A stretch of DNA of 64,000 bases from Bryoerythrophyllum caledonicum (Eukaryota > Streptophyta > Bryopsida > Pottiales > Pottiaceae). Below, piece by piece: positions 12,595-60,688 of the stretch. The notes under the pieces were generated by a model. That model was not told the DNA's origin. It did not search any database and saw only the letters and a program-made list of their open reading frames with translations. Made by a program: the position numbers and the translations under genes. The stretch's first letter is position 1; every line of letters begins with the position of its first letter. The stretch is from assembly GCA_963971425.1 (NCBI GenBank), contig OZ020525.1, forward strand, positions 7,671,560 through 7,735,559, read 5' to 3'.

Positions 12595-14555
12595 CTATAC
12601 ATTGTCGGTGGCTCTCCTAGGATGCTTGTTGCGTGTCATCCGTTCAAACCAATCAGGTTGTCTAGCAATCTGATTGGGTAATCCATTGTCTACAATAGTG
12701 AAACTAGTATGCGGATGCAACCGGGCATTAGCACCATTGACGTTCAAGGTCCTCATTTTTGCCACAAGAAGTCTCAACTCAGCCATCCCATGCTCGGCTA
12801 AAGCAACCCCTCCTTCCATCATAACTTCCTCCATCTCCTTTGTGCCCTTCTTGAATTCACGCATGACTTTAGATAATCGTTCGGCGTCCGTATCCTCAAA
12901 CGGAGTGTCAGCCTCATCATTTTCCTCAGGCCATACTTGGTTTGGGTCCTCCCAATTTGGCCTCTCCGCTTCCGGACCTTCTTCAATAAAACCCCCATCG
13001 TTGTCTATATTTGCAAAAGGGTCAGTGGCATCGGGGATATTACAAGCCTCAAACATGGCAAGCACCCCACCCCTATTTGTCCCGTACCATGTACCACAAA
13101 ATTCAATAATTGTATCCGTACTTATTCCAAACGTTAAGAGAATAGCAACTTGATGCTTGCAAAAATTCCCACGAATTGACCACTCGCAATTACAACAAGC
13201 ATACTCAATGCAAGGAGAAGCTACCGAGTACCAAATTGTGTTGTCCACAGTGCTCTGCACTTGCCACATTGTACCATCCTCAGTGGGTGCAATGATATTG
13301 TCATCTTTGATCTCCTTTGCAGCAATGACACTCTTCTTCACAATCTCGGCAATGACTTTGTTCTTCACAAATCCAAGGTTCTTTAACTCCAATCGGTATT
13401 CATAGTGTCTCTCAACACTCTCAATCAACTTTACTATCATCCAATCCAAGCGTCGTCCTTGAGTACCCCATCGATCCAATTTCAACCATCTCTTCAAAGC
13501 TCCATGGTATGATTCAATGTGTCCCGTTGTGTCCGCCCCACTATGTCGACGACAGCGTAAACCCTTCAACCACATCCCTATATGCAAGCAATATAAAATT
13601 ATATAATTAGCATGTTTGATTATTACATAAGGAGGAAGTCAATTGTAGATACCCTAATCATTGATTTATGTTATATATCTGGAAAACAAATCAATGAGGA
13701 CAAGGTAATTTTATGTTTTGAGATAAGGTATTGATAGGGACTATTGATCAATCCCTGTCAATACCGTATCCAAACGTGCGGACAAACAAACAAATATTGA
13801 GAAGTTAAAAAATAAATACCAAATTGACAATAGTACGTCCATATGTAGTCTTCAAATAACTTCCCGACATCCCCAACCGTGTCAAAGAGATCAACTACCG
13901 CTTCGGTTGCTCGTCCTATAAAATGTTCCTCACTCTCTTGGAAATTTATTGACATGTACATAATTTATTTCATTCCATAGTATGCCAAATGTCGGGCATC
14001 CTCATGAGTCCTCATCTTTTCGTTGGCCCTGAGATTCCAATTCTTCAAAACATGCCTTAAACACAAATAGATTCGGATGTTTGCTTCTTTCCTCACGGTC
14101 CTGCACAATAACATTCTCATAGATTACTAGTGAAAGAGATTATAAACTATAAATCCGTTGCTCACAAAACAAAATCAAGACTCAAAAGTTATAGACATAA
14201 TTGGATAGAGGAACGTAGAATAACACATACTGTATTGCGTTATGAGTGGCATCATTATCATCAACCACAAAGCATGTTGGTGTAAAGGTGGGACATTGTT
14301 GTAGAAGTCGCTCCTTCATGGCCTTCATGAACATTGTGATGCAAGACTCTGTTTCACGATTGGTAATAACCCAAGCCGCCGGAAAACCACTACGGTGGTT
14401 GTCATACACAAGGAATGGAGGCCAAAGTGGCGGAGTTGGAGAAGAAGTCGAGTGGGAATGCTTCTTTGGGGCAAGTGATGGACGCACAGACTCTGGTGAA
14501 GAGTTGTGGTTCGTCCTTTGTCGGAACACGGTTGTTGCAAGTGCATCCCCTTGAG
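12595..14555 (-). pseudogene. MULE transposase with SWIM zinc finger, 5-prime truncated
   Basis: Minus-strand exons are 14231-14555, 13820-14100 and 12595-13577, with GT-AG introns in matching phases. The first visible exon holds the start of the RNase-H-like core (VYDNHRSGFPAAWVI) and the second acidic site (FVVDDNDATHNAIQ). The next has the Mutator CxxH signature (YLCLRHVLKNW). The last carries EsYHGALKRWLK-like sequence and a SWIM finger (CCNCEWSIRGNFCKHQ). An in-frame TAA at 13965-13967 interrupts exon 2, and the N-terminal exons are absent beyond 14555. Transposases of this type cut and paste Mutator-like DNA. This copy looks dead. The C-terminal 150 residues are acidic and then helical, with no recognised domain. 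Confidence 0.8.
13722..13771. repeat. Palindromic GGATAGGG motif pair in transposase intron
   Basis: GATAAGGTATTGATAGGGA is followed by ATCCCTGTCAATACCGTATCC with its order reversed and complemented. The pair sits inside the intron 13578-13819 of the MULE transposase gene. Confidence 0.75.
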
Positions 14556-21250: not shown

Positions 21251-21699
21251 TCGGTGACCAAGAAAGTGGCTCCAGCAAAGGCGGTGGGACATTCTAAACC
21301 GCCAATTCCAAAGTTCAGTTCGACAGGTTTGGGGCTTACTTTTCCTCCTAATGCGTGGATGCCTTTGGTTTTGGCTTAGGAGGGGGTTGAATTGGTTGCA
21401 AATGTATGCCAAAGTTCAATTCTGACCTTCGTATTCGTGCGCATATGGGTGATGGAAGTCGGAAGAAGTGAAGGGGACGCCTGCTTTGACGTTCGTGAAG
21501 ACGTCATCCGGGACATTCACATGTGCACTGAAGATGTCGAAATGGACGTGTCATTGAGGTGAGGTCAGGACGAGTTAGGTTTCCGTCCAATGCAATGTCA
21601 CTCGAAGGGGAGTAATCATAGTTTGTAGGTGGCTAAAGGGGAATGCTATTTCGTGAGCGGAGAGCGGAGAGCGGAGAGCGGTGAGGAAAAAAGAGAGCA

Positions 21700-23270
21700 A
21701 ATAATTCAGAACTATAGGACAACTTTTTGAATTGAAAGCCTTTATTATTGTGGATTTTTTTAGCAAATCCTATTAAAATGTATAAACATATTTTACACCT
21801 GTTTTATTTAGAGATTAAGGGTGACGTCATTGTGATCAACTTTATTGAACTGTGACGTCATCATCACAGCTACAAGGTCATGTATCAATTTCATGAACCA
21901 TTTATGGTCACCACTACAAGGCTAAATGCCATGAAATACAAATTTATAAGTAATGAAGTTCATGGTGAGGAGTGAGGGAGTGACGCAATTAAAAAAGAAG
22001 AAAATAAAATGGAAGGGACAACCATAAAAGAGGCCCAGAACTAAAATGGCACATTAAGTAGTAGTGCTATGACTATAACTTTAACCCCTAAGGTACCATG
22101 ACAATTTCACATCTAAACACTTCAAAATTGTTGGACTTTAGTGCAATGAATAAAGAAGCAAACATAAACTTTTATTTTTAGTTTTGACCATAGGATCGCA
22201 ATTAAGCTTTACTATGTAGCATTCTCACAAAACTTCATTAACTTTGACATCATGGATTGAAAGTTTATGGTGTTTGAAGTCAAAAATATTGGTTCATATT
22301 TTTCCCCTCCATTGAGTGGATCAGCAAACATTGACTTCACTTGGAATTCAATTTTTGCACTACACAAGGTATAATTCTTTCACCATTATGTTTATCATGA
22401 ATTTTGTTCCTTATACCCCAATTTTTAGAGGTAGAAAGTGAGTGTAGCATATTAAAAAAATTGTGCTAAGAGAAGAGGTTCAAAATTTGCCAATTTGTGT
22501 TTTTTTTATTGATAATTTAAATGATCAATAAGAAGGTTTTCACCACATATTATTGTTGAAAAAATAAAAGGTGAAAAATATGAAGATCTCTAGGTTTTAC
22601 AGTTTAGGAAAGTTTTCCCACCCTTATGTTGAGTTTGGATAGGGTTCCACGTTCTCAATTCTAGGCATTATTTTTTGAGATTTTTTATTGAATGACAACT
22701 TTTTAATAGCTTTGCATTTTTAAATTTGGTGCGCATGTGCCTAACATGATCCTTTTGAGTTTTAAAAACTAAATTCACGGCCCATAGTGCAAAAAGTTGC
22801 CATAGAAGGGGTCGAAGTTTGTTGAATGTGTTTAGTATAACCACAAAAAAGAGTTTATGTCTCACTTTGAAGGCTAGTATCTTTCAATCCGTGCGGTCAA
22901 ATGTACCAAAATTTTCACCACCCACTTTTATACAACTGTAGTACAAGATCTTCCGGTTGAATTTACAAAAAAACCATTTTGTATCATTTTGTATCATTTT
23001 GTGTTGAATGTGCTGAAAATGGCAGTTTTGGAGTGTTTTTGAGGGAAAATTGTGCTAGGCATTTCGGGGCTAAAGGATTAGATTAAATCTATAAACCATC
23101 ATACTGATTTCGAGATTTTACTTGCCATGTGCCATCATGGGCAACAGTGTACATGACCCACTTGCTTCAAGTCTAAACTTGTGGATGCCAACCTGTGTGA
23201 TCCTATAATCAAGCCGCGGACTTGGCTGCCCTTGGGATGAGGTGACTAGTATAAGTTTGAGAACGTTTCT
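21700..23270. other. AT-rich left arm of the nested element, no gene
   Basis: No coding signal was seen. The part 22100-22620 matches the reverse complement of about 57940-58340 (shared words include CAATAAGAAGGTTTTCACCAC and GAAGATCTCTAGGTTTTA), and 22860-23080 resembles 58290-58490 in the same orientation (CAATCcGTGCGGT, ACCAAAATTTT). These are the non-coding arms of one repeat family. Confidence 0.65.
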
Positions 23271-23370
23271 TTAAACTCAAGGTAAGGTTCTAACTCTGTA
23301 CTATTTGCCTCATACTGGCTGGTTGATGCACGTCCGAGCTTCTCGCTCTTGCTGCAAGATTCACAGATTG

Positions 23371-23640
23371 TCGCACTTTCTTATCGCTCTCGCTCATTGC
23401 TCTCGTTCTCCCTTACGGCTCGCCCTTATCGCCCTCGCTCGTCACTTGCTCTCGCTCATTGCTCTCGCACATTCCTCCAGCTCTCCCTTACGGCCCTCCC
23501 TCCACGCCCTCGCTCGAGCTCTCCCTTACGGCTCTCCCTCTACGCCCTCGCTCGTCACTTGCTCTCGCTCATCGCTCTCTCGCGCATTTTTTCGCTCACC
23601 CTTACGGCTCTCCCTTATCGCCCTCGCTCGTCAGAGCCTC
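23371..23640. repeat. Pyrimidine-rich degenerate tandem repeat
   Basis: CCCTTACGGCTCTCCCT, CGCCCTCGCTCGTCACTTG and CTCTCGCTCATTGCTCTCG alternate many times over 270 bp. The open frames across it are repeats, not genes. Confidence 0.8.
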
Positions 23641-24059
23641 TTATCCAAAGTGCAAACGAAGCATTAGCGCAGCAACCAACCTCCCCTCGGCCGCTGTCGT
23701 CGTTGCTGTCTTCTCCTAGCATTCGTCGCGCTCGCCATCGTAGACACTCGCCGCATCAGCAGCAAGAGCAGCTTCGTTGTGTGCATTCTCTCCCCATCGC
23801 CCTCGCCGCGTCCCTCTCACGGAGGCGCCAGAAATTTCACTCCCGGAGCGGTTTGGACAGAGGAAGGAGGTCGAGTATTGCGGCAGGGGGAGCGTTTCTT
23901 GTGGCGGCGTCACTTTAGGTACATCGCTTTTGTTTTGGCGTCGCTTTTGATTTCGCTTTTGTTTTGAGGAGCGGCGGCGGGTGAGGGAGGGGCTAGGGTT
24001 TGGTGTTTTTGAAGGTGCGATCTGGGTGTTTTTGATGATTTGCAGTTTACTCATCCTTG

Positions 24060-24660
24060 TTTCTCAATAGAGGTTCGCCGCGGGAGTTCACTGGGCGCTG
24101 ATTCCCGAGAGAGGACGACCGCCGGAGGAGATGGAAACTTCAGGCGTCCGAAATCTCGGCAGCTAGCATCTCGAGAGACGGCCTGCTAGCATCTCGACAG
24201 ACGGTCTTCTTCCCGAGGAACACTCACAGTTGGTAAGCAACTTTTTGTTTTTGTTTTGGCTTTTTCAGGAAAAGCCGATGAGTCTATGAAGGTCAGATTT
24301 CTAACACGCCGCTCGGACATTGTGTATTTCTAGGCAGTCGATTGAACAACAACAGTTTGAGCGGTCCCATTCCTGTTTCTCTGACGGTCATTGAGGGACT
24401 GCAAGTGCTGTAAGTTCTGATTTTGAGCTTAAATTGTCTGAGATTTCAATATCCAAGAGCATGGTGTGGACCTTGCAAGCATTTGTTCTTGAATCCTGCA
24501 TTTGATTAAAATTGTTTGGGTTTCAGGAGGACCCAGACGTACGTGGTTGCTCTGCCACTGTGGAGTGATCCGTTTGCAAGGATATGTCACAACAACTTAT
24601 CCAGACAAGTTCCGACCAACGGTTCGTTTTCACTGTTTACACCCTTCAGGTACTTCAATG
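24060..24660 (+). pseudogene. Captured SERK-like receptor-kinase exons
   Basis: A 72-bp exon at 24338-24409, between a GCAG acceptor and a GTAAGT donor, encodes RLNNNSLSGPIP and SLTVIEGLQVL. This is the leucine-rich-repeat exon of exactly this length found in SERK/BAK1 co-receptor genes. A second exon ending at about 24650 encodes NNLSRQVPTNGSFSLFTP, the final repeat and the start of the proline-rich linker of SERKs, with its donor GTACTT. It contains an extra stretch of about 50 bp. A weaker kinase-like piece lies near 24060-24170. Introns are retained, so capture was from genomic DNA. The fragment cannot make a receptor. Confidence 0.7.
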
Positions 24661-24759
24661 TCCCTTTGACCGCTTCCAAGTTCTTATTAAATGATAGTAG
24701 TTATGTTGTGTACGCTGCTAACTTAAGATGTGCTCCAATATAGCCTGGAGGGTTGATGG

Positions 24760-25940
24760 GGTCTGGTTCAAGAGATTTGGCTCTCAAGTGTAAGCGCAAA
24801 GTCTAGGCACGGTCAGACATTAATCTGCAGAGATGTGGTTTTATGTAGCATGCACTACACATCTTGAAGATGCATCTTTGAATTGAAGATTGCAAAAGTA
24901 AATTAAAATGATTTAATATGTATTATATTTCAAATTCATTTCAATGTTTATAAAACAATGATACTCTCCTTCCCATTGACTCTTTCTACTCAGATAGAAA
25001 GAAATACCCGGTCCCACGGTGGTTGGTGGGCATTCCCTCGGATTTTTTGCACAATTGGCCACCTAGAAATCTCAACGCGCTGACGGTACCAACGCTGGGC
25101 ACAGTGGTTAGTCTTCGGACGAGGGGTGAAGGTCTGAGATTTCTAGAATGGTCGGTTGTTGCATATTTCCGGAGGTGGAGTTGAGTTGGTTCAAAACCAA
25201 CACCGGTTTACTGGTGACTGCAAAAAAATTATAAAAGAAAATGAAAATATGCCTCTAAATTGAATAATTAAAAAACAATAGAAAGAAAAAATAAATGAAA
25301 TTATTTAAAAATAAATATACTGAAAAATAATATAAAAAAATTTAAAAACAAATTGAAAGAAAGAAAAAAAACATTTTAAAAAACGAAAACAGCTTGATAA
25401 TGATAATGGAGGAATGATCCACGCCAAATTTTCAACTTCTTTTTACTCTAAAAGTGGACATTATGGTAAAATTGTGCCATTTCCGTCAATTTTACCTTAT
25501 CTCCAATAGTTAATGATATTTACCATTCTTATTTACAATTTGTGGGTTGAATGTCTATGTTTACCATTATCAATTTGAGGCTCTCACCATAACAAGAGAT
25601 AAAGGAACCCATCATGGGTGACCCCCTGAGCACCATCTATTCATTCTCGGTCGAGGCCCTTTCAAAGATCCACCGAGGGTCCACCTATCATGGGCCTCAT
25701 AAACTCTAAGCCCTCAAGGGTTTGCTCCAATCGTTTACCTCTTGTTACTGCAAGGTCACGGTGAGAGATCACCTCTCAATAAATGGAGGTCTAAGAAGCC
25801 CGTATTGGATGGACAAATGATTGCCCCTTCCAAGCTTCTCGGTCCAAGGCCTGCTCCATATCTTTAGAACAAGAGAGTACTTCAAAAAGGTATATAGAAT
25901 TTCTTGAATATCATGAACACACAAATATATTGGTAGAGAA
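24760..25940. other. AT-rich non-coding stretch downstream of the methyltransferase-like gene
   Basis: A-rich sequence with no coding signal lies at 25200-25400. Words such as TCTCGGTCGAGGCC at 25648-25661 echo the CTCGG...CCGAG palindromes found at 28.7-29.3 kb and 36.4 kb. No polyadenylation signal can be assigned with confidence. Confidence 0.4.
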
Positions 25941-25954
25941 GGATTCAAAGAAAT

Positions 25955-28900
25955 CTAAAAATCCACTGTCGAGTCTAAAGAAGACTCCTTTCTGTTGTGT
26001 ACTGCTTCAAGATCAAGTAGACTTAAAACAGCTGGATTGTAGCATTGGCGCTTGCTAAGTCTCTTTGGCGGTGGTGACATTGACGATGCGAACATGTTTG
26101 CCATTTGCTGTGCATACTCTGGCATAAATGCATATTCTGATACACTGCAATCTATTGATCTGCTGCGGACAATGAAAAAATATTTGAGCACTAATCTGGG
26201 AAAAGATATAAAAGCCGAATGCCCATAAGTACAACCATTCTACTTACTCAATTGCGGCACGCTTGCGCTTTCCCTTATCCCTTGGTATGATGTCCTCTAG
26301 ATCTTCCGCATCAAGTGCAACCTGGGGAGGCGGTCCGGGCTGAGGTTCATCCGGTTCGGAGGAAGAGTCGGCATCCCCAGATGTAGTAGGTCGCGTGATC
26401 TTCAATGGGGATAGCATGGATTCGAACACATCACTATCTGCCTCTAATGCCACAATATTTCTTCCGTATTCTTTGCACACCGTCACCGAATTCCCTGATA
26501 ACAACTGTTGTTAGAAACGTATCACAGAATACACACAACTTGCGTATAAATGCAAAACATACCAACATTTGTTGTCATGTCCACAACAAGGTTATCAGTG
26601 TCAGTGGATGACAGGATCAACGATGTCATAAAGTGACTACCGCGCTCCTTTGGTCCTCGCCACACCTTCCCGTCCGTTGTCTTCTGCCACTCTGGGTTGA
26701 CAAAATTCCAGATTGTGTCACCATCGCCAATGATGAGGCCGTGGTCCTTGAGTGCATTATGAACTCGAAAATGGAAGCTAGTTTTTGTGCGTAATGATCC
26801 GGCTGTGTCGCGAACAATCAGGGCAATCTTAAAAAGTCCCGTTAGAGAATTGTCAATGGCCGAATAAGTGTACATACGATTCACACCATGGAATTCCTTA
26901 AAAATCTTGAATCCAAGCTGTGGAAAATAGCTTGTGAACAGCTCTTTCCTGCTCCCGCCATCGTCGCTATAGATAAGGAACATCGCCCCGTCGTCATGTA
27001 GAAACTTGTTGGCAAAGGCAAACACATTCTTCAACCAAGTCGGGTCAAGGACGTTCCATGCTGGAGTTTTGTCGCATACACCCTTTACAGGTTTGTTGTC
27101 TGGGATCTCCGCAATAATCAGGTCCACTTTTGCCTCTTTATCAACATTCTTCCCTCCCCAAATGCACTTCTTCCCATTGTTACACTCCGCAGCATAATCA
27201 GCTATGGTCTGCCAAAGGTCACGGGAGATAGGAGCATTAATGATCAAGTTAGATATGAGACAAGCATTCCCAGGTGATGGCGCCACGGTCTGACTCGGGG
27301 TTGGGTCACGAAGAGAGGCTCCGGATAGTGTTGAATGTGCTTGCGATATCCCAACACCTGGAGACCGGGCCTGGCGACAGGGTTGAATGCGTCTAACAGG
27401 TGCAGAACGTTGAGACATCAACACGGTGTGCCTGCCCCCATCTCCTCCATCTTCATCGTCATTTGATTCAGCTTGTTGCATCACGTCTTCGTTTACACCC
27501 GGGATCTCTCGCTTTTCGAGATTCTGAGTAGATTGGCCCTCCTCTGGAACAATAGAATGGGTCTCTTTGCTTGCCAGCTCGTCTTCATCATCATTGTCAT
27601 CCTCAGAGGGCAACGGTGACAGCCCCAACTCTTCTCTTCTTTTGGCCTCCTTGGCCCTCAGCTTGGATTTCTTGATCGCATCTCGCTTCTCCTTCGCTCG
27701 CTTATTCCTTGCTTGTTGCTTTGACTTCGGACTCAGTGGTTGAGGCTTCTTCTTCTTGGATTCGGCTTCCTTAGTGATTACTTCCACTGCCACATCTGGT
27801 CCAGATAGTGGTCCAAGCATGTTCTTGTACTCCTGCTCTGTCTCATAGCAGTAGTTCTTGTTACACTCAACATACCACAGACACTCTCTCAGATGCTGAA
27901 TTGAGAACACTTCCATCTGATACGCCGTATACATACACGTATCAGAGGAGGGAGGATATGCAGAATTCATCCACCGTGGAACTCGAAGGATGGCCTTCAC
28001 GTTAAACAAGACCTGACGAATGTAGCGGTATATAAACCGCTTTGCCATATCCTGTCTCCCCGGCACTTCCTCCCACTTTGTCAGCCGGGTAAACTTTGTC
28101 TTGCCACCAAACACTACTGGGAAGGCATGTGACCAAATCTGACATCTCCATGTCTCAAAGTAAATCTCCCAGGACTCATACTCGACATTGGGAACGATAT
28201 CGAGCTCCCCCAGTATCTCATCGATAGTCATTGCAATCTCATCTTTCAGCTACACGCAAACACTGTCAGTGCTTCATGATAAATATATAAATCCCTAGAG
28301 TTTGATTTGGAGGTGGATGCTAACCTGAATCCAGAATACGGCTCGATCTAGATACGTCCGTAGTTGCGACTCAGAGCAAGGTTGTGGCCAGTGCTTTTCC
28401 TTCTGGTTAAAGCTCGAACTATTCCATAGCTTTAGCCATTCAGTCTTGTACTGATTAGGCACATTCGTAGTGGCAATCAACTGAAGTTTATCCAATCCCA
28501 TATCCACTTTTTCGATTGGGCGGGTGGAGTAGTGTAGTCGAACCTAGCAAAAACCACAGAGAAAGAACATTGGATATCAAATTACGTCAAAACCACGATA
28601 AATAAAAACATTCCATTTGACTAACTGAATGATGATTCAGACATAGTTACTCAAAATTGAAGAGATGAAACCAACCCATGAGACCCAGGAGGGCCACCAA
28701 AAGGCTCTCGGACCGAGAACATAAAATAGGGTCGCACTCTTATGCGGGAAACTATTCCAGGTAAGAAATGAAATAACCCCTTGGAGATGCCTGCTCAAGG
28801 CCTCGGACTGAGACTTGTTGCATGGCCTTCCGAGATTGAGGAATGCTTAGTTCAAGAGAAAAATTTCAACCATGGAGGGCGTTTTTCATTGTCCACGATC

Positions 28901-31834
28901 CAGGAGGCTTCTAACCATCCTCTATTTTAAGTAAATCGTAACCTTTTGGTACCGAGAGGTTTTAATGTGACTCCCGAATGACCACATGATCTAAATACAT
29001 CTTGAAAAAACGAACCGCTGGAGGGCTTGATTTTTGTTCTTGGTCCGAGGACCTTTTCACTGCCCTCCGAGAGGTCCTATATTGGTCCGCACATGATATA
29101 ATTAAAGGTGAGAAAACGTTACGCTGGAGGGGGATGTTCACTGTCCTCGGACCGAGAGCCTTTACACCACCCTCCGAGATGTTACACCGCAGACCTCAAA
29201 TGATATAAATACAAGGTGAGAAAACGTAACGCCGGAGGGGGATGTTCACTGTCCTCGGACCGAGAGCCTTTACACCACCCTCCAAGATGTCACACCATTG
29301 TCTACACAAGATATAATTTCTAGGTGTCAATGTGCTTTGCTAAAAGGGCCAGAATTTTGTTCTTGGTTTGAGGACAACCAATGTGGTCCTCTAGGGTGTA
29401 ATGTCTTGGTCCTCAACAAAATGCAATGTAACAATGAATCAATGACAAAATCAAATTCAGCTTGTACCTGATCTAGAAAATCCTTCCCCAACCGTGGATC
29501 GGCAACTGCAGAGAGCTTGCTGAGCCGTTTGATCAATTTCGACTTCTTCACAGCCATTGCTTCTTCCACCTTTGACCTTAGCTCTACACCGGTTGCTTTG
29601 CCATTCATTCTAAACTCGATGCGTTCAGTTGACGCTACCTCTTGTAATTCATCCTGTATTTCTGCGTATCAGCCTCTCAATGAAAACTAAATTGTGACAA
29701 CCTCTTAATATCGTTGTGGTAGTTTACTTACATGAAATAGAATCTTCACCAATTGATTTGACGGAATTGGATACCAGGTATCTCTTTTGAGCCTGAGACA
29801 CTTGCTGTAGACCTTCTCCGGTATCAAATCCTTGAAGTACGTTATGTCGCGTTGACCAAAAATACTCACTCTGTCTAACTCATGCATCGTGTTCGTCTTC
29901 ACATGTGCTTTCTCTGTAGCCCTGTTTTGAAGTTCAAGCACGATGGTTAGAATTTGGGAAGAGAGAATTCAAAACCACACACTTACAACATACTTATTCA
30001 CCGCGTCCATTGCTTTCAGAATCTTTGGAAAGCCGCCTGGCGTGATGTTGAGCATGATGGTCTCGGGCTGGCCATTGCTGCGTGTAAAAAACAAATCGCC
30101 ACTCCTTTTCTCATCGATGAACGACTTCCAAGCATCATGACGGTGGTTGCCATCGTAGATGAAGAACATTTTGCCGCTCAAATCACCTAGATCAGGGTCA
30201 TCCTTCAGCTTCGCTTCGAACTCCTTGTTCACCGACTTCCAATTTGGCGACCACTGATCCTCTATCTCACTTGACACTTCCATCTTTTCTCCATCCTTCC
30301 CTGTTAATGCAATATAGAAGACAAATGTGCCTAATCGATATCCATGCTCAAAACTATCCTGCAACTTGAACTTGTCAGCCAATTGGACACCACGAAGTTC
30401 TGGCATTGGCACCATGCGACATAGGGGCACGCGCAGTCTTGAAAACTTCTCCTCTGGCTGTTGGCGCATCAGAGTGATGGCGGCAAAGGAGTCCGGGTTG
30501 TAGAGCAACCCCATCCGCTTCTCAATCTCCGCAACATCTATTTCAGCCTCCGTGCCCAAGTTCTCCTCTTCCTCTTCCTCTTCCTCTTCCTCTTCTCTTT
30601 CTCGAACCGCCTTACGTCTCTTCCTCTTCTTTGTCTCTGCTGTGCCGACTACATCTTGTTGCAAACCGAGGGTAACCATGGCCAAAGCAGCTACTGCGGT
30701 GCCATTCACACTGTCGGCTATGGCGTCTCTCACTTTGTCACGCTCAGGGCCATTGGCATCTCCGTCGGTCACCTCTCTCTCGACGTCGATGTTTGCCGCT
30801 ACTTCCTCCATATGAATGTCTTCTGCCATGGCCGCCTCTTGCCTGGACTCCCATTCACCGTCCTCCTCTCTCTTGTCACCATCAGGTTGCGCCATCGCTG
30901 CTATGGCCACCTCTTGCGGCTTGCTGACCTGCTCTACCATAGCCACCTCTTGGATCAGCTCTCACACACCCTCACACACTTGCCCTCTCACACAGCCCTC
31001 ACACACTTGCCCTCTCACAAACCTCTCCTCTTCCTAATCTCCCCACTCACAGACCTCCTCTCTCCCCTGTCACAGACCTCCCCTCTACCCAATCTCCCCC
31101 CTCACAGACCTCTCCTCTCCGCAATCTCCCCTCTCACAGACCTCCCCTCTCCCCAATCTCCCCTCTCACTCACCTCCCCTTTTGACCTAAACCCTAAATC
31201 TAATATTTCTAAATCCATAGTGGGGACACATTATATATCACCTGGTTATTTTATATGTATCACCCAGATCTAATATGAATGTCCAACTGGTATTGCATGG
31301 GTATTACCTACTTCAAATTTTAAAGATGATAGAAAGTCCATGTCGTATACTAATTATATACAAAACTGACCATAGAGTGGGGTACCACTCTAGATCTAGA
31401 TCTAGATCTTGGCCAACTAAACATCTATCATTGAAGTACGGTCCATTACGAGTACCAATTCTCAGGCCTTCTTTGAACAATGACTCAGTACACACAAGTA
31501 TTCCACTCGGTGATATTGATGACCGCTTTTCATGAGTTGGGTAACATACCTGAGTCTCTTCCACGCGGATTAGGTCGATCACCATTGTCGGCTCAATAGT
31601 AACATCTGCTACCATTGAAGTGCCTGTCACGTCTAAGGGAGTGATATCCATTGTTTCTTGCACATCTGCTTCGGCGATGGGGGCTACGCTTCTTGCCGTT
31701 GTGGTAATCGGTAACTTAGCAAACTCCCCTCCTAGCCGTCGCTTCGTAGCACCTATGTCCACCGCCCTCATCGCCTTCTCCATCTCCTTCCGCCGCCGTC
31801 GTGTGATTGCACCTCCCTCTGCGTGTGTATCCAT
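25955..31834 (-). CDS. ParB-like plus permuted N6-adenine/N4-cytosine DNA-methyltransferase-like protein, eight exons
   Basis: Exons (minus strand): 31550-31834, 29994-30958, 29732-29921, 29468-29653, 28325-28543, 26563-28249, 26248-26494 and 25955-26162. Donors are mostly GTATGT or GTAAGT and all phases agree, giving about 1,328 residues with no break. The first acceptor (30959) lacks a pyrimidine tract, so translation might start inside exon 2 instead. A poly-Glu run lies near residue 220. A ParB-type motif (FIYDGNHRHDAW) is at about 363-373, and a Lys-rich helix at 780-825. VDLIIAEIPDN (about 990) aligns with methyltransferase motif IV, and VVDMTTNVGNSVTVCKEYGR then IVALEAD (from about 1170) with motifs I-II, the beta-class order. 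Bacterial and phage ParB-methylase fusions share this layout. Motif IV lacks the usual DPPY, so DNA methylation activity is uncertain. It is divergent from the transposase gene. Confidence 0.75.
28640..29340. repeat. 108-bp degenerate tandem repeat inside an intron
   Basis: Two clear copies begin GGTGAGAAAACGTTACGC at 29107 and GGTGAGAAAACGTAACGC at 29215, and older copies extend back to about 28640. Each unit contains the near-palindrome CTCGGACCGAGAG and GGAGGGGGATGTTCACTG. The array fills most of the intron 28544-29467 of the methyltransferase-like gene. Confidence 0.8.
30961..31190. repeat. CTCACAGACCTCCCCTCT minisatellite in intron 1
   Basis: About eight imperfect units of 25-31 bp built on CTCACAGACCTCCCCTCT and CCCAATCTCCCC lie between the first two exons of the methyltransferase-like gene. 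On the gene strand it is purine-rich, which makes the intron-1 acceptor weak. Confidence 0.8.
31391..31414. repeat. AGATCT hexamer repeat
   Basis: The sequence TCTAGATCTAGATCTAGATC is a short run of a self-complementary hexamer in intron 1 of the methyltransferase-like gene. Confidence 0.8.
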
Positions 31835-32419
31835 ATATGCTGAATGAAAGTTCTGCTCATCGTGCCAATCATTTATACCCTGCTCAAAAAATTAGGGCTA
31901 TTTGCAATTTCCTCCATGTTCTACCTATGTTCCCTTCATAATGTCTTGGCACGTACGGGTTAATATCATCTGCCCTAATTAAGGCCGCCAACAATTTCCT
32001 ATCTTGAAATAGAGATATGTGTTGTACTCTTTGAAGTCCATTATTTGTTCTTGGATATTATTGAAGGGTTCTATTTCAAACATAGTTGTATTCTTTACAA
32101 AACAAACACTTGCGCCGACTTCATTATCTTTCTTAAAGCAAGACTCGCCAAATGTGACACTGACTCGAGACAGCTGGCTCTCAAATAATGGAAGAGTATA
32201 GCTGCCCTAAGTTCACTCGGTGGTTAGCTACAGCTGTTGCATCTAATCCTGAATTCAATTCAAATTATTTTTTAGAACGTCTACTCTAAGCAGTGACAAA
32301 CGCCGTCTTCTGGACCAAACCCCTTTTTAAACCCTTTGACTATTATGTATAATTCTTGCCCTGCTCCATATTTATACACTTTCTTCAGTTTGGTCTACCG
32401 TTCTTGTCTTGATTTTCCC
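31835..32419. promoter_or_regulatory. Shared divergent promoter region
   Basis: About 585 bp separate the start codon of the methyltransferase-like gene (minus, 31834) and the presumed start of the transposase gene (plus, 32420). It contains no open frame of note. A TATA-like TATTTATACACT at 32370-32381 lies about 45 bp before the transposase ATG. The head-to-head layout suggests that one bidirectional region drives both genes. This is inferred from layout only. Confidence 0.5.
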
Positions 32420-35400
32420 ATGGCTCCCGCTACTCCATCTAGCTTGTCTTCGATGGCTATACTTCGTACTACTGGTAGTGGCGATCCCATTGCCTATCCT
32501 TTGAATGAGGAGGGTATTGCCACTGTCACTAGTGCCGCATTGAGTGTTAGATTTAGTTTTCATTAGGAAAGTATTTGTGTCGAGGAGGAGGTTTATGACG
32601 ATGATTGCTTGTCTCTGTTGTATACTACACCTAGTCAGGCAGTTGTGAACAATGATTTTTACAAGGAATGGAAACTTCGCAAGGGTCGATATAGGGTATA
32701 TGGTCGTGTAGATTTAGATATCACTCCGTCATCCATTGACCTTACCCCTCGTCAGTCCACGACATGTAGCATGCAAATACCTCCTCCAGCTCTCCTGAAG
32801 GTCAAGATTGAGCCAGACACCGAATCTGTCACTATTCTCTCTTCAGATGATGAGGACACTATCCCTAGTACATGCCCCCCAAAGTTAACTGATCTCATGT
32901 CCTGTCATCGTCATTTTGTTTCGTCTATTCCGACTACCTCCTATCCACCCAATTCTTGTCCTCCAAAAGATCAAAGTATTTCTGGAATTGTGAGTGTTAT
33001 TGAGAGTCTCAAGCGGTTGTCCACCCGTGTTGGCGGCAAGAATCCACTGAAGAAACTGAACTTTGATGTCATTCCACACCAACATGTGAGTTGTCTCCCT
33101 ACCGATTTCAACAACAACGTGGTCTTCGAACTGCCTCCTGTTCGACCGTCGGCTTCTTCCACCCAGGCACGTAATATGCATGGGATGGACAAGCGATACG
33201 ATGGACACGTCTGGACGAAGACGATCACGTCAAACATCATGAACGACGATGGCCTCCACTTTCGGACTTCCAAGTGCGTTGGTCATTTGCAATGCGACAA
33301 CGTTGATTGCGAATACCTCCAACGAGTTAATCGATTATCGGACGTGAATGAGAGGGAGTTCAATGGAATGACGTCAGTGTCATTAGAGGTAGGTCAAAGA
33401 GCCCCTAAGAACACGCTACTCTGCAAGATCTGCGGAGATCCTCCGGTGTGTGTTGCCACATGTGATGCTATGGTGTACTACGTTAGTGGTAAGCAAAACT
33501 GCACCCGTGCTTGTATTCACTTAGGTGTACATAAACATCCTGTTAAGATAGGTGATTACCGTGATGTTAAGGAGAAGATCAGTAGTCTTATTAGTGAGCA
33601 GGTAGAGAAAACTCCACAGGCAACCAAGAGTGCCGTTGTGTTGGAAGCGAGCAAGGAGCTGCTTGGAGATTTCCTGCTTCGGGAAGATGGCGACCCTCGA
33701 AAGACCTTGACTGTCGAGGAGCTAGCTCCCTTGTTAGACAAATGCAAAGACATGGGATCTCCTAGCATCCGAAACAAGGTGGTCACATTCCGGTATCTAA
33801 AGAGGTACGGTGTCATGGATGCCATCTTAAAATTGCGCTCGGTAAGTTCCTGGGCGTTTGTGCAGAATAGCAAGTTCCCAAGTCAAGGTTCAGAGACAGC
33901 TGTGGGAGAAGAATCCAAGGTCTTTGTCTTTAAGATGTCAGAGGTTGGCTCGGGCTCTGGCGTCGATCTTGTGAAGCGGATGCAACCGGGCAATGACTTG
34001 GATAATGCATGGATGATGTTCGACCACGTAAAACGCTTGGCGGAGTGGACAACAATGGGATGTCATGTTTACGACGCAACGTACCGGAGGGTGATGACCA
34101 TCGCATGCTGCGACTTGATGTCTGAGGATAAAGACGCACAAATTCTTTTCTGGAATAACTTGAATGACGTCATGCGTCGACACGGTGTGGAGAAGCCGGA
34201 TTTTAAGGGATTTATGGCGGATGGTGCTCAGGCAAACTGGAATGCAGTAAGAGCTGTATACGGAGGTGGCAAAGTCATGACGGACAAGGAGCGAACATGC
34301 CTTTTCCACTGGGTACAAAGTATGGTTAAGTACACGGAGAAGTGGATCGCCGAAGAATTTCAGGAGCAGCATAAGAGACTCTGTAAGCAGTATAGGGAAG
34401 CTACGGACATGGAGAATGCCGATAGACTATACGATGCGCTTCAAGCGTGGTACAGGATATCTGGAGCTCTATCTGAGAAAGGTTTTGAGGCCATGTCTAG
34501 TTGGCTTGTATGGTGGCACTTCAGATATCGCCAATGGGGTGGATTCATGACCAAGGTATGACATATGCTTCTTCATTTCTGTACGTTATACAATGAGTCA
34601 TTTTCTTCCTTCATCTTTGGTTTCTTACTCATCGTTGCTTTATTGTAGAACATGTCCGCCGATGAACTAGCCGAGATGCCTTCTTGCAATCTAGCAGAGA
34701 TAGTGCATAACAAGTGGAAGCAAGCCTCTGGAAACCGAGGGGTAGACTTATACGTTGCCACCGTAGACGACTATGTACGTGGATTCCTCCAAGTTGTTAA
34801 CTATCACCAATTTTTAAAAGGCGACGTTGGTGGGACGGGTCCTAGCAAGGATGAACTAAAGCTTAGAGTAGCCGAGAGAAAGGCTCAAAGGACGGGTGAC
34901 CCTAGCGTCTTAAAGGACTCTAAGTTGCAAATGCCGGGGGCGGCGGAATTCTGTACTCGCACAACAAACAAGGCTGGTGAAGAGGTATTTGGCTCACGGA
35001 AGCGTAAGCCAAACATGCCTGTCGGTGCTGATGATGAGTCACACCGACCGGATAAAGTAAACTTCTCTCGACCTCGCCATACTTCCAGACCACTAGGTAC
35101 TTCTACAAATCCTTTGCCCATTATTGACGAAGGCAACGGTGTTGCTGATGACGAGGATGTCGTTGGCGGATATAGCGTTTTTGATGATGATGTGTCTCCC
35201 ACGCGACCAAGACCTGTAACACCGTTGGCGTCTCCAGTCTACAGAGCTAGTTTGCGTCGCGTCACATCGGTGCAAGAAACTCATGTTCAGTTGACAGAGT
35301 GGCATATTGCACGTTTGCCGAAGAATTCTGCGAAGGCTTGTTGGGCACAACGCTCGATATCAAAGAAGAAATGTGAGGAGAAGATTGTCAAGGGTAGGAA

Positions 35401-36163
35401 GGCAACTCCGGCACCAACATACACTGGTTTTTATCGTCACCCAAAGAAAAATGTCTTAGAGACAATGGATTTCTACTTTTGCAACGATGACATTGAACGG
35501 TGTGTGAAGGGTACGAGGCGGCTATGGGTAGTTCAATACAAAAAGGGCCAGGATAGGCCTCCAATCCCGAATGTATGGCCTGTCATGGTGGGTACTAATC
35601 TGACCCGTGGCGAGATTGAGGATCTTGAAGCAGCTGGATTTCAACTCCCGCAAAAGCAGCAAGTTTCTCCTAGACGCCTATTTACTAACGACAGACCTTC
35701 GAGAGACTTGAGTTCTATCCCAGTACCATCGGACGCGTCTAGAGTTCCGGCAAAGAGGGATGGTAAGGCGGTGAAGCGCACCTCAAAAGTGCGTAACGAG
35801 AAACAAAGGAAGTCCATGGGGTCTGTTGATTCCCTCATTGCTTCTATCAAAGCTGTGAGGATGCTCCCAGGACCCGGTTTAGGGTGTCAAATTTCTCTCC
35901 TCTCTTACGGTGCTCAGCCCGAAGCTACTACATACTCCGTAACAGTGAGTGCATTTCCTCATTGTTCGTGCCCAACATTCACGAAGACTTGGAAGGCATT
36001 CCGTGGGAAGAGCCAGTACTCTCATTGTAAACATCTCTACTACATCCTTCTCACGATTTGTGGATTTCAACCAACTGTTGACTTCATCCATGCTTCTACC
36101 CTTAGTTGGAACGAGGTCAAACAAGTTCTTGAACACGGCATTCTAACTCATTCTTGGTCTTAG
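32420..36163 (+). CDS. Mutator-like DDE transposase with SWIM zinc finger, two exons
   Basis: Exon 1 runs to 34555 and exon 2 from 34649 to 36163. The phase-0 intron starts GTATGA and ends TTGTAG. The first ATG consistent with the frame is at 32420, but a TAG at 32564-32566 follows 48 codons later. Apart from that the frame is open. A Cys/His cluster (CKICGDPPVC to HLGVHKHPV, about 270-310 counted from 32609) resembles a WRKY/GCM1-type DNA-binding module. The RNase-H-like core shows YDATYRRVMT (first Asp), FMADGAQANW (second Asp) and CLFHW (CxxH). Exon 2 ends with a SWIM finger (CSCPTFTKTW then HCKH). I infer the element's own transposase, probably inactive or needing readthrough because of the TAG. 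Confidence 0.75.
34556..34648 (+). other. Phase-0 intron of the SWIM transposase gene
   Basis: The 93-nt intron starts GTATGACATATG, ends GCTTTATTGTAG and joins codons AAG and AAC. Both flanking exons continue the same protein, from the DDE core to its helical and SWIM part. Confidence 0.8.
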
Positions 36164-36329
36164 TCCAGTTCCTTAGTGTTTATCCTATAGTCAACCTACA
36201 TAAACCCTTTTTATTTGTTCTAGAGCAAGTGTTCAAATTTAATTATGTATAGATTTTCATGGAGGCCTCCCATATATAAATATATCCCTTCTATTAAAAG
36301 ATGTTCTTTGATTGGTTATACGATAAAAT

Positions 36330-36500
36330 CTCTCGGCGCCAAGATGTCTCGATAAATTTTCATGGTACAGAAGGTCACTGTAAAACCTTTCGGGTACCAA
36401 AAGGTCACCGAATAACCTCGTGTTACGAAGAGGTCACAGTGAAACCTCTCGGTACCGAGAGGTCACGGTGAAACCTCTCGGTACCAAAAGGTCACAGTAT
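36330..36500. repeat. Palindrome-rich tandem repeat near the right end
   Basis: About five units of roughly 35 bp contain AACCTCTCGGTACCGAGAGG and GGTCACGGTGAAACC. CCTCTCGGTACCGAGAGG is a perfect 18-bp palindrome. The array lies about 200 bp beyond the transposase stop and 220 bp inside the right terminal repeat. Confidence 0.85.
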
Positions 36501-36718
36501 AATCCAATATGTATTTCAAGTTTTTCAAAAAGAGACCACAATTACCGTAATTAGGACCGCGGTATGAGGTTCCAAAATTGCCATAAACATAGTCAGAATA
36601 ATTAAATTCCATTAAATATATATGTTATTCTATAATTATTCTAATAATATTTGAATCTTTATCGAATAAACCAAGAATATTAGAATATTTTTGGCTCTCC
36701 ATGGCTGAAATCTCTGCA

Positions 36719-36748
36719 CACCGCTCTCCGCTCTCCGCTCTTAGCTCA
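36719..36748. repeat. Right terminal inverted repeat of the nested element
   Basis: ACCGCTCTCCGCTCTCCGCT is the inverse of the GAGCGGAGAGCGG run at 21654-21684. Confidence 0.75.
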
Positions 36749-37586
36749 TGAACAAGCCTCCCTCGGTGGCTAAACATTGTAGTGAAAATGATTAGTGCTC
36801 AAGTGGACAGGGTTTTCATACCTTCAGTCGTTCTGATGCACGTTTACATGAACGAGTTCCATGTAATCCACACGCTTGTCCATATGGACATCTATGAAGT
36901 CGTTCATGTACATGTTACAGTACTCATCCGTTCTCTCGTTTCCGGTGACGTCTAAAGCAAACCGGTTGCCACAAACTTGTAGACGTCACCGTTGCATTCC
37001 TCGAATACAAACAATGTTCAATAGGATGCCGTTTTTATCAGGTGGATATCTATAATTACAACCCTACAAACAAACTTGTGCATAAGGATTGTCCCGGGAA
37101 ACACCCCATGAAATAACGACAAAAATGTAGACGTTGAGGTAAACGTCTATTCGTACATCTACGTAGACATTCAGTAGTTCTGTATGATGTCCAGGAGGAC
37201 ATCATCAGCAACCAACAACATCCGAGAATGGGCACCACATCAGCCGGTGCCACGTCATTTTTCCAGGGGTCCAAGTCAGATGTGAACGGGTCCACGTCGG
37301 CGGATATGTCATGGATGAAAAACATTGTAACGTGTCCCTGCCCATTTTCAAAAATCCCACGTGGCGCTAAGTTGGATGCCAAATGGCACGCACCAGGCCC
37401 TCGAAAAGACCTCATCGTTTTGGATGTCCCAAAAACTTTTATACGTTTCTTGGGACATCATGCGGATTTTCTTGGATGTCCAGGGCACGTAAACACCTGG
37501 ATTTTAATTAATGCCCCTTTTGACGTCCATATCGATAAAATGCCCGTTCATTTTTACGTCCCAGAAACCCTTGTTTTCTTATAGTG

Positions 37587-46479: not shown

Positions 46480-46900
46480 GGTTTGGGAGAGAGTTTAGAG
46501 GTTTTTGGGAGAATTTGGAGTTGTACTGGGGAGTCGCCGGAGTTGGAATTGGAGTCGGGACAGGGAGTTAAGAGTAGGAGTCTGGAAGGCAGGGAGTCTG
46601 CAAGTCGGGTCAGGGAGTTGGGGGAGTCGGGAAATCTGCAGTCCGGTGGGAGAGTCGGGGTCTAGTGAGTCGGTTTAGGGTTGAGGTCCAGGGAGTGGGG
46701 GAGTCGGGGTCCAGGGGGTCAGGAAGGGGAGTCGGGAGAGTCTGTTGTTTTTTTTTGTTTTTGATTTTTGTTTTTTGGCACAAAAACATACCAAAGTTTG
46801 AATTGCGAGTCGGGAGAGTCTGAGAGGGGAGTCGGGAGAAGGATATCGTAGGGAGAGGAGTCGGTTTAGGGTTTAGGGTGGGGAGTTGGGAGAGGGAGAG
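46480..46900 (+). promoter_or_regulatory. G-rich 5-prime region of the pogo-like element
   Basis: GGGAGTCGGG-type words and GTTTAGGGTTTAGGG repeat through the 400 bp before the transposase start. Several runs of three or more G could form quadruplex structure. It probably holds the promoter or leader. There is no proof beyond position. Confidence 0.45.
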
Positions 46901-46953
46901 TGATAGGGAGGGGAGTCTGGAGAGGGATAGGGAGATGGGGGCTTCAATCAAAG

Positions 46954-48468
46954 ATGACTTTACCGGTGTCTAGCATTGGGCGTCCGCCAAGAGTTGCCAC
47001 CGTCAAGGGCCGTGAATTTACATTACATGAGCAACAGGAGGTCATTTCTTATCGTGAAGAGATATTGGCTTCGGGTCACAAAATTACCAACAAAGCATTA
47101 TGTGAGTGGGCGAATATCAAGTTCAACAATATTGCTTCTCAAGTCACAATTGGTAGATTGTTGAAACTGAAGACATCGGTGACTTCTATTGGTTTGGATG
47201 ATATGGGTACTTCCAAGCGTATGAGGAAGGCACAATGTCCGGAAGTAGAGACGGTGACTTTCAATTGGTTTGTGAGACTGCAAGAGAATGGTGTTGCATT
47301 ATCGGATGATCTTGTGATAGCTTTGGCAAAGAGATTCTATGCATTTTTACCGAGAGATGAAAGTGAGAAGGAACTTCAGTTTTCGAATGGGTGGGTACAG
47401 AAATTCAAGAGGAGATTTCAGATCAAAGGTTTTGTTCGTCATGGAGAAGATGCTTCAGCGGATACTTCGCCAACAGTTTTGCAGCAGATGGAGCATATCA
47501 AGGCTATAGTATCTACATACGACATTAAAGATGTTTTTAGTATGGATGAGACTATTTTTTTACACAGATTAGAGCCTAATCAAACTCTAGCTACAAAACG
47601 AGTGTCTGGGAAGAAGAAGCTAAAAGAGCGCATTACAGTGGCTTTGACTGCAAATGGGGATGGAAGCATTTGTCTTCCTCCATTAGTTATAAACCAGTAT
47701 TTGAAACCACGAGCATTTACTTCAAGGCATATTTTAAATCCAGAAAACTTGGGCACTACGTGGTTTGCAAATAAGAAGGCATGGATGACAACAACGATAT
47801 TTGAACAATTTATTTTGGATTTTGAAAGGAAGATGGTTTTGGCAGGAAGAGAGAAGGTAATTCTCCTTGTTGATAGTTTCTTTGGTCATCAATTGCCAAC
47901 TGCAGCTTCACGGTTGAGGGTGACAAAACTTTTATTTTTGCCTCCAAATACAACAAGTCGTTTCCAACCTATGGATGCAGGCATTGTAGCCTCTTTTAAG
48001 GCTCATTACAGGAAATCAGTGATAGAGCATCAATTAGAATGTGTTCTGGCAGAAAAAGAATTCAAAATTGATGTGTATCAAGCAGTGATTATGGTTGAAA
48101 GAGCATGGCGTTTTGGGGTTACAACTCAAACAATTAAGAATTGTTGGAGCCATACGGGTATTTTTTCCAATGTTGTAGTGAATCAGGGAGAAGAAGTTAG
48201 CCGTCTGACAAAGGTTGTTGAAGTGGTGGCCTTGCTTGAGCGATTAACATTGTTATCATCTGAGACTGAAGAAGATGATACTATGGGGGCTCAAGAGTTC
48301 ATCAATTTTGAGCTCGAATTTGATTTGAATAATCCTTATCAACCCACTGATGAGGATATTTTAGACTATCTACCCTCTGAAGATCAAGATTGTGATTTAG
48401 ATGAGGATACGATAGATGTTGAAGATGTGATAGGGTTTAATGATGCAAAGCGTTGCTTGAGACTTTGA
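46954..48468 (+). CDS. Pogo/Tigger-like transposase with CENP-B-type DNA-binding region
   Basis: The frame is open from ATG 46954 (a GTG-initiated extension to 46900 is unlikely) and encodes 504 residues, normal for Tigger/pogo. Helix-turn-helix segments lie at about 20-75 and a CENP-B-type second domain at about 95-165 (FSNGWVQKFKRRFQIKG). The DDE_1 core shows D198 (FSMDETIF), D307 (ILLVDSFFGH) and D341 (TSRFQPMDAGIV), a DD33D triad. An acidic tail (about 435-495) follows. The protein would bind the terminal repeats and insert at TA. No break was seen. Confidence 0.9.
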   Translation: MTLPVSSIGRPPRVATVKGREFTLHEQQEVISYREEILASGHKITNKALCEWANIKFNNIASQVTIGRLLKLKTSVTSIGLDDMGTSKRMRKAQCPEVETVTFNWFVRLQENGVALSDDLVIALAKRFYAFLPRDESEKELQFSNGWVQKFKRRFQIKGFVRHGEDASADTSPTVLQQMEHIKAIVSTYDIKDVFSMDETIFLHRLEPNQTLATKRVSGKKKLKERITVALTANGDGSICLPPLVINQYLKPRAFTSRHILNPENLGTTWFANKKAWMTTTIFEQFILDFERKMVLAGREKVILLVDSFFGHQLPTAASRLRVTKLLFLPPNTTSRFQPMDAGIVASFKAHYRKSVIEHQLECVLAEKEFKIDVYQAVIMVERAWRFGVTTQTIKNCWSHTGIFSNVVVNQGEEVSRLTKVVEVVALLERLTLLSSETEEDDTMGAQEFINFELEFDLNNPYQPTDEDILDYLPSEDQDCDLDEDTIDVEDVIGFNDAKRCLRL

Positions 48469-58918: not shown

Positions 58919-60688
58919 CTAAACTTCAGCTTCATCGTCAATGTATCTACGTACCCCTCTACTGAAACAAAGTGGAACTTGCGAAGAGGAACTTGGAGAC
59001 GATGCTGCCGCTTGTTCCTGTGCTATCTCAGCATCCCATGGAGCCATGGCAAAGTCCTTCTTCGGCGAGAGAACCGCTGCCATCAGTCTAGCAAAGCCAC
59101 ACACAGATGAGTGAAATGATCAACTAAAGATGGCATTGTAGTAGAATTCAGAGTTTGAAACTCACTTACTCAATCTTTTTTTTTTCGTCACTTTGTGGAT
59201 GGGAACGTCGGTGTCGACAATCAGTGGCGCTTGTGGAACTGCAGGAGAAAGTTGAGGTGTCGATTGGACCAAAGAAAGAGGGATGAGCTTCGCATTGAAG
59301 ACAATAGTGTCCTCCTCCAAGGCCACAATGTGGCGGCCGGCTGACTTGCAAGCTAGAATGGAGTTTCCTGAAGTTGCATGACAGAAATTAGATCTAGTAC
59401 TTTGTGAAATACAAGGCAAGAACAAGAGGAAACATACCAATAGAGGCGAATGCATCGAGAAGCATAGACTCCAGCTTGGTGAAAGCCTCAATGATCATCT
59501 GTAGGAAAATCGCATCCTTCTCACGAGCGCCCCTCCATGGGACTGCGCGATTCATTGATTGAGACTGGGCGGTTGTGAAATTAAAGAGTACATCTGAATC
59601 CGCAACCCCCAAACCGACCTCGACAAGATCTTCATTAACGGCAATCGAGAAGTGGTCCATGGACAACTTACTGTGAAGGAAGAGCTGAATTCGAAACCTT
59701 CTACTCTATGAAGGTAGAATCAAACAAGAGTCGATGTTAGGTCACGGTAGAATCAATATTGATTGCAAGCAGAACTGGACAATGAAGGTGAAAGATTGAA
59801 CAAATTTATACCTTGATCCGGGGCTGAGAAGGGAGGAAGATGGAAGGTCGTTATGTCCCCACCACTCTCGAAATAACTGAAAACTGTAACCTTCGGCATA
59901 TGAGAGGACATCACTTCGGATGCTGAAGACGTCAGGGACCAAAAGAAGCAACCCACCCTCACTTTGAAGGAAGTACTCAACAAACTCAAATAAACTCTCT
60001 GTATCGTGCATTGAATACTCGTTCCAAATTGGAACGTCAGTGGGGCTCGTTGAGATGCCAAGAACCATCATGCCATCCTTCATATCACTTATTATCAGGT
60101 CGAATCCGCTATGAGGGCAATGAGTCGAGAGTGCGGCACTCCCTATTTCCTTCTTCATCTGAATATTGTAAAAATGAAGGAGTACAGTGTTAAAACAAGG
60201 GACTTGCAAGCACAGACTTACAAGCAGAAGCAAAAATCGAGAGAGAGTATACCATGAATGCCCAAGAAATCATTGCCTTGGATCAACAACTTTGATAAAT
60301 CAGAGGACACTGAATCAACACAATTCCAAGAGAAAAAATTGCTGAAAGAAGGAAAGTGTAGAAGAGGAAAGAATGAAGAGAAATAGGGGGAGAGTTTTAC
60401 TTTGAGGACAAAGTTGTTGAGGTTCAGCAGAGAAGGATGAATCTCAAGCAGGACCTTCAGAATTTTCAGAAGACTAGTCTTTTTGACAAGAACTGACGCT
60501 TCCTGGGACATGTTGGAGGTAGACAATGGTCTTCCAGATGCCACCTTCCCCTTCAGCTTATGCAACAGTATGGAGATTGGGCTTGATCCGTCCTCAACTG
60601 CACTTACTGAATTGATAGGGGCCACTGCGGAAGTGTTCACAGGAGTTGACTCTGGTATCACCTGGAGGACGTCAATGTCAACATCCAT
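58919..60688 (-). pseudogene. Second methyltransferase-like gene, ParB part absent
   Basis: Proposed exons (minus): 60253-60688, 59812-60202, 59438-59670, 59170-59367 and 58919-59087. Phases agree except at the last junction, where the A-run near 59180 leaves the frame one base off, so a small frameshift or another donor must be assumed. About 475 residues. HSGFDLIISDMKDG aligns with motif IV and WRGAREKDAIFLQMI with the segment before motif I. LLDAFASIG and NSILACKSAGRHIVALEED form motifs I-II, split by an intron at the same glycine codon as in the 25955-31834 gene. No ParB motif was seen. It may be a shortened, decaying paralogue. Activity is doubtful. Confidence 0.6.

Follow-up and report, generated by a model that had tools for sequence, protein, structure and literature searches.

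The gene predicted on the minus strand at 31834-25955 of the window, the whole 64,000-nucleotide stretch of Bryoerythrophyllum caledonicum DNA analysed here, is carried by a complete MULE-like transposon and joins a ParB-like region to a C-terminal domain homologous to the beta-class DNA amino-methyltransferases, in which the catalytic motif has been replaced. The reading preferred here, to which about an even chance is given, is that the gene belongs, as an accessory, to a two-gene family of MULE-like transposons and encodes a non-catalytic, self-targeting DNA-binding helper. A DNA-binding helper is more likely than a DNA-modifying enzyme because the catalytic signature has changed.

The predicted eight-exon model (Table 1) is well supported by sequence comparison. 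Its eight exons have consistent phases, as the sequence-only reading had described; they also have GT-AG borders and give 1,328 codons, which supports spliceosomal introns. Comparison with one copy from family B, whose exon 6 is 55% identical, places the GT and AG borders of introns 2 to 6 at homologous positions and leaves introns 1 and 7 unresolved. Two metagenome relatives (P0003 and P0004) stop at the end of exon 2, matching the modelled border, while a third (P0001) continues through the intron that lies exactly at motif I. Inclusion of exon 7 strengthens the match with the methyltransferase profile PF01555, the score rising from 14.8 bits for exon 6 alone to 21.3 bits for the spliced protein.

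Table 1. Positions in the window of the transposon, its two genes, associated repeats and the diverged paralogue.
Feature	Position	Strand	Basis
Complete MULE-like transposon, family A copy, 15,127 bp	21638..36764		copy comparison
10-bp target-site duplication, left (GGTGGCTAAA)	21628..21637		flank comparison
10-bp target-site duplication, right (GGTGGCTAAA)	36765..36774		flank comparison
Left terminal inverted repeat	21638..21683	+	arm pairing; same terminus in 5/5 further copies
Right terminal inverted repeat	36719..36764	-	arm pairing; same terminus in 4/5 further copies
Transposase gene, first of its long coding exons; upstream start uncertain	32609..34555	+	ORF, family B/C identity
Transposase gene, second coding exon, SWIM-like C..C..H motif near end	34649..36163	+	ORF, family B alignment
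ParB-MTase-like gene, exon 1	31550..31834	-	splice model
Exon 2, ParB/Srx-like region, DGNHR at 30154-30140	29994..30958	-	splice model and alignment
Exon 3	29732..29921	-	splice model
Exon 4	29468..29653	-	splice model
Intron 4, repeated units with palindrome CTCGGWCCGAG	28544..29467	-	repeat and palindrome analysis
Exon 5	28325..28543	-	splice model
Exon 6, linker and MTase-like domain to motif I (DMTTNVG)	26563..28249	-	splice model, profile
Motif IV position in exon 6, reads EIPDN	27109-27095	-	translation
Exon 7, remainder of motif I region (GNSVTVCKEYGRNIVALEAD)	26248..26494	-	splice model, PF01555
Exon 8 including stop codon	25955..26162	-	splice model
Sixth CTCGGWCCGAG-type site, one mismatch, downstream of stop codon	25838..25848		motif scan
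Diverged MTase-like paralogue, five exons modelled, 421 aa, DMKD, no ParB region	58919..60688	-	splice model

The earlier proposal that the gene is carried by a plant DNA transposon is borne out by the termini and target duplications, and the anatomy of the element as described here is regarded as close to certain. Comparison with a second copy, on a different contig (L039/L040), shows a match of 98-99% across 21638-36765 and divergence beyond, and the borders so obtained agree with a previously detected inverted repeat, the arms of which (21640-21683 and 36719-36762) comprise 44 nt that are 84% complementary. Exact 10-bp target duplications flank six of the seven copies examined, the window copy included (the others being C12:10.5M, C2:4.47M, C12:8.66M, C2:27.26M and C1:21.1M). 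For C1:42.35M, the seventh copy, a left end is present and no right end was found within the stretch covered, and an eighth near-identical copy (C2:19.8M) was left out of the end comparison. The left terminus carries 0-1 mismatch per 25 bases in all five further copies. A stretch of about 200 bp at 25006-25206, beside the 3′ end of the gene, was considered as the left end of the element and rejected, the true end being 21638; it is placed inside the element because the flanks to its left are shared within families. This stretch is 78-81% conserved between family A and A′/B copies, carries words resembling box A and box B that we take to be tRNA-promoter-like, and is possibly a SINE or a constrained element.

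The transposase gene and the ParB-MTase-like gene are transcribed away from each other. None of the five transposase sequences scanned matched a Pfam transposase profile, and the Pfam SWIM profile was reached in one family B piece only (E=1.4) and not by the window copy. As no such profile was matched, the label MULE-like is used on the strength of the target-site length, the inverted ends and the SWIM-like motif. MULEs are defined by an 8-11 bp target duplication (PMC6446971), a range within which the 10-bp duplications of the element fall; according to the same text MULEs commonly have hundreds of bases of inverted repeat, compared with 44 nt here.

The homology of the C-terminal domain to beta-class DNA amino-methyltransferases is established, at the level of sequence profiles, by matches to CcrM, DpnA, PF01555 and the phage DNA-methyltransferase family phrog_6952. 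A profile built from six members (families A, A′, B and C, the window paralogue and P0001) matched CcrM among solved structures with E=5.5e-8 (6pbd), colinear over residues 29-249, and DpnA with E=1.5e-7, mostly in the motif I part. All six members matched PF01555 with E values no higher than 1 (best 2e-8) and all six matched phrog_6952 (best 2.1e-6). The profile search against N6_N4_Mtase that the sequence-only reading had put forward as a check returns PF01555, with the window protein below the gathering cut-off of 26.7 bits (24.9 bits for the domain alone) and family C pieces above it in 8/8 rows of the genome search. A single-sequence search of solved structures gave nothing below E=0.2, with CcrM at 1.4, and the AlphaFold model of this part (pLDDT 43) is too low in confidence to inform; in place of the structural match to a Rossmann methyltransferase fold that the sequence-only reading had set as its criterion, the link to CcrM comes from the sequence profile. 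The suggestion of a prokaryote-type DNA-modification gene holds for the descent of the domain, while its standing as an active enzyme is doubtful given the replacement of motif IV in families A and B.

Motif IV precedes motif I, the order that had been noted from the letters of the window. The canonical (D/N/S)PP(Y/F/W) is absent from every member read. Among 24 A/A′/B loci read, a subset of the exon-6 matches described below, motif IV is EIPD in 23 and EIRD in one; the EIPD of families A and B has no aromatic residue. DQPF stands at this place in all eight family C loci, with EVPD in the C6 copy (L042), DVPE in the distant relative L045 and DMKD in the window paralogue. The SAM-binding FxGxG of motif I is likewise not found in the window protein, and the first glycine is lost in 16/16 A/A′ loci (NVG or NIG) and 8/8 family C loci (STG or SIG). 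GxG is kept, without the F, in 8/8 family B loci and in L042, so that family B may still bind the cofactor. With this catalytic motif replaced, the A and B proteins are doubtful as methyltransferases, and the family A domain is probably non-catalytic, a judgement that depends on motif IV and is for that reason unaffected by the GxG of family B. The DQPF of family C could still be active. In a rotifer enzyme, changing SPPY to APPA abolished 4mC addition (PMC8885841).

These motifs bear directly on the proposal that the protein methylates DNA at N4 of cytosine or N6 of adenine by means of an unusual motif, marking its own transposon as proposed for algae. Self-marking was suggested by the Ectocarpus authors for a ParB-MTase gene lying opposite a transposase (PMC12477816), and the D-Q-P-F of family C, the GxG of family B and the selection on the domain (see below) would all be in keeping with it. 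The missing aromatic residue in A and B, the loss of the first motif I glycine throughout A/A′ and the lack of a canonical motif in any member point the other way, and an active enzyme is considered improbable.

The N-terminal part of the protein is ParB-like at the level of a motif, and a ParB fold is unproven, since there is no ParBc match, the matches to DUF1015 and DndB are weak and the structural model is uninformative. A DGxHR-type motif is typical of ParB/Srx relatives. The DGNHR reported from the sequence alone is present in exon 2 and is invariant, together with 36 other columns, in five aligned sequences, an alignment that omitted P0002 (which reads DGNVK and then leaves the alignment) and P0005 (which stops before the motif). 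A motif scan found DGNHR in nine of ten loci, the degenerate L042 reading DGNYR. None of the five members scanned matched the ParBc profile up to E=10, no ParB structure was matched in a PDB search, and one member weakly matches DUF1015 (0.0045) and DndB (0.12), both of which are members of the ParB/Srx group, around the DGNHR motif. The AlphaFold model of the region is of low confidence (pLDDT 44.8) and a Foldseek search with it found no matching fold with E of 0.001 or below. The ParB-like assignment made earlier is therefore supported at the level of the motif.

It has also to be considered that the ParB/Srx-like region is a working nicking or NTP-regulated nuclease that aids excision or replication of the element, while the methyltransferase domain provides a scaffold that binds DNA. 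The ParB domain of a Bacillus ParB-methylase nicks DNA non-specifically (PMC5512222), and the invariance of DGNHR in the five aligned sequences would suit such a role, but the profile results given above and the lack of structural support from the model or the fold search weigh against a nuclease, which is thought unlikely.

The gene is present in many copies, with at least 32 exon-6 matches genome-wide, the window's own included. By exon-6 identity these comprise eight at 95-99% (family A), eight at 81-87% and one at 70% (A′), 14 at 55-57% (family B) and one at 41%; in family B, 12 of the 14 are free of internal stops. A genome profile search added eight further matches, which form family C. 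Over the methyltransferase part, five of the eight family A loci are open, two contain a stop and one is frameshifted. The ParB-like region and a divergently transcribed transposase were also found in the copies read from the other families, one each of B and C, the transposase being 77% identical to that of the family B copy (which has one internal stop) and 41% to that of the family C copy.

By Nei-Gojobori counting, two B copies compared over the methyltransferase part give a dN/dS of 0.08 at dS 0.14, and A compared with one A′ copy (L022) gives 0.16 at dS 0.29. For A against B, where dS is saturated (2.5 in the methyltransferase part), the ratio is 0.105 in that part, 0.117 in the ParB exon, and 0.124 and 0.088 in the transposase. 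The linker (residues 760-955), with no computable dS, is the fastest-evolving part of the protein. On these substitution ratios, purifying selection acts on the protein with roughly the strength seen for the transposase, and the methyltransferase-like domain appears to be maintained despite its replaced catalytic motif. Ratios among near-identical A copies range from 0.24 to 0.63 on a small number of changes, as would be expected if these copies are recent and some are dying.

The domestication proposed in the sequence-only reading, if taken as that of a single host gene, is rejected on copy number, the gene being a multicopy transposon gene. A host gene captured or domesticated once and carried as a Pack-MULE-like passenger useless to the transposon is very improbable, for although MULEs are prone to capture fragments of host genes (PMC6446971) and a solitary diverged paralogue lies in the window, the gene pair occurs in A, B and C despite the divergence of their transposases and the gene is under purifying selection.

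No close prokaryotic relative was found among the searches made. A search of phage sequences returned two records of one phage, a weak match (E=0.9) to an annotated DNA methylase, and one with the ParB region returned no relatives; viral contigs likewise held none. Protein searches gave one relative of the methyltransferase part and four of the ParB region, and none when the spliced protein was used as query. The single match among bacterial genomes (L045, 747-4074), in a record titled Synechococcales MAG, was judged a eukaryotic contaminant, with intron-like breaks at homologous places.

Several other observations were made in the window. The diverged paralogue has the same intron position at motif I as the main gene, and no long transposase ORF was seen alongside it within the window. 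An inverted non-coding repeat, 76% similar, is shared by 22255-22599 in the element and 57950-58313 near the paralogue. A minus-strand ORF at 12595-13587 has a weak SWIM match (E=0.0029) below the cut-off and is perhaps a MULE remnant, an ORF at 46900-48468 carries DDE_1 and HTH_Tnp_Tc5 domains (a pogo/Tc5-type transposase), and an ORF at 50277-52028 matches xyloglucan fucosyltransferase (E=1.1e-53), as would suit a streptophyte plant.

Intron 4 of the gene contains an array of palindromes. In family A five near-palindromes CTCGGWCCGAG lie at 28707, 28802, 29039, 29146 and 29254, spaced 95, 237, 107 and 108 bp, and with at most one mismatch the word occurs at six sites in the element and nowhere else in the window (allowing two mismatches gives six sites within the element and five beyond it). 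The corresponding family B intron, which does not align to that of family A, carries a palindrome of its own, TCTCGTNACGAGA, in five copies spaced 106-107 bp. Five sites in each of the A and B introns compare with a maximum of three in 60 first-order Markov random sequences per test, and for the 13-mer form three sites in A and five in B compare with a random maximum of one. Across 42 region-shape tests six beat the random sequences, four of them in the A and B introns and two in AT-rich family C stretches, the latter consisting of TATA-type words and rejected as arrays on grounds of low complexity. The 788-bp intron of family C has no palindrome array above random sequences, and neither palindrome was found at one mismatch or fewer in the stretches examined of family C, L042 and L045. 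At 36415-36500, near the right end of the element, are 29-bp repeats with the palindrome CTCGGTACCGAG, which is related to the intron palindrome.

Within the arrays the palindromes are more alike than their surroundings, with agreement among the five units of 4.73 for palindrome columns versus 2.99 for the rest of the unit in A, and 4.64 versus 3.60 in B. Between A and A′ they diverge less than the remainder of the intron in all six comparisons (0.09-0.27 versus 0.24-0.37), and between B copies in all seven, with at most two changes each. Intron length among A copies steps by 108 bp (924, 1032 and 1140). This conservation of the palindromes is suggestive, not proof, because the units are tandem, the copies share ancestry and the choice of sites was itself based on their palindromic form in the reference copy. 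That the protein targets its own element through these palindromes is put forward tentatively, at somewhat less than an even chance. A fuller version, in which a prokaryotic ParB-methyltransferase fusion lost catalysis and was kept as a sequence-specific factor reading a parS-like palindrome array in its own intron, array and protein diverging together between families, is on balance doubtful.

Under the preferred reading of a DNA-binding helper, the methyltransferase fold would now serve as a non-catalytic DNA-binding module, perhaps still cofactor-binding in family B, and the ParB-like and methyltransferase-like parts would together recognise element DNA, perhaps at the repeated palindromes. 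The bound protein might then recruit chromatin factors, keep them out or aid transposition, with the outcome that host silencing is countered, as by VANC for VANDAL elements, or that the ends are prepared for transposition. The element suggests that selection may be keeping binding rather than methylation. Related families in one genome that read EIPD (replaced) and DQPF (near-canonical) offer a direct test of the self-methylation idea, and the family-specific palindromes lend themselves to exact and cheap binding assays.

ParB-MTase cargo in transposons is a kind already known from algae. Sola1-1_Ec32 of Ectocarpus carries a 1,104-aa ParB-like plus N4/N6 methyltransferase gene opposite its transposase (PMC12477816), and as in the element described here both domains are in one long protein, opposite a transposase, in a large DNA transposon. 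The ParB part is recognised here at motif level, and the Ectocarpus element is a Sola-1 transposon of a brown alga with a domain predicted to make 4mC or 6mA, whereas the present one is a plant MULE-like element with its catalytic motif replaced, the two being compared by description. In the openly accessible literature searched no report was found of such cargo in a plant MULE or of catalytic loss. The element extends ParB-methyltransferase cargo to a plant MULE-like transposon. CcrM and other beta-class enzymes (PDB 6pbd, 5hfj) share the order of motif IV before motif I, and the profile match to CcrM is colinear; they differ in that DPPY has become EIPD here and motif I is altered (NVG in A), with GVG kept in B. 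The bacterial ParB-methylase Bce_0392, the ParB domain of which has been shown to nick (PMC5512222), similarly has a ParB-like domain fused to a DNA methylase, but is prokaryotic. Retrotransposons of dinoflagellates and charophytes carry C5-methyltransferases shown able to methylate (PMC5890265), and resemble the present case in that a transposon carries a DNA-methylation protein, but these are host-derived 5mC enzymes in retrotransposons. The VANC anti-silencing proteins of VANDAL elements, for which both binding and methylation loss have been shown (PMC5735166), are likewise accessory proteins of a Mutator-type plant transposon; for VANC the function has been shown, compared with the array alone here, and the two are likened by analogy. 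If the moss-element protein is indeed a pseudo-methyltransferase, it would represent convergent evolution with VANC.
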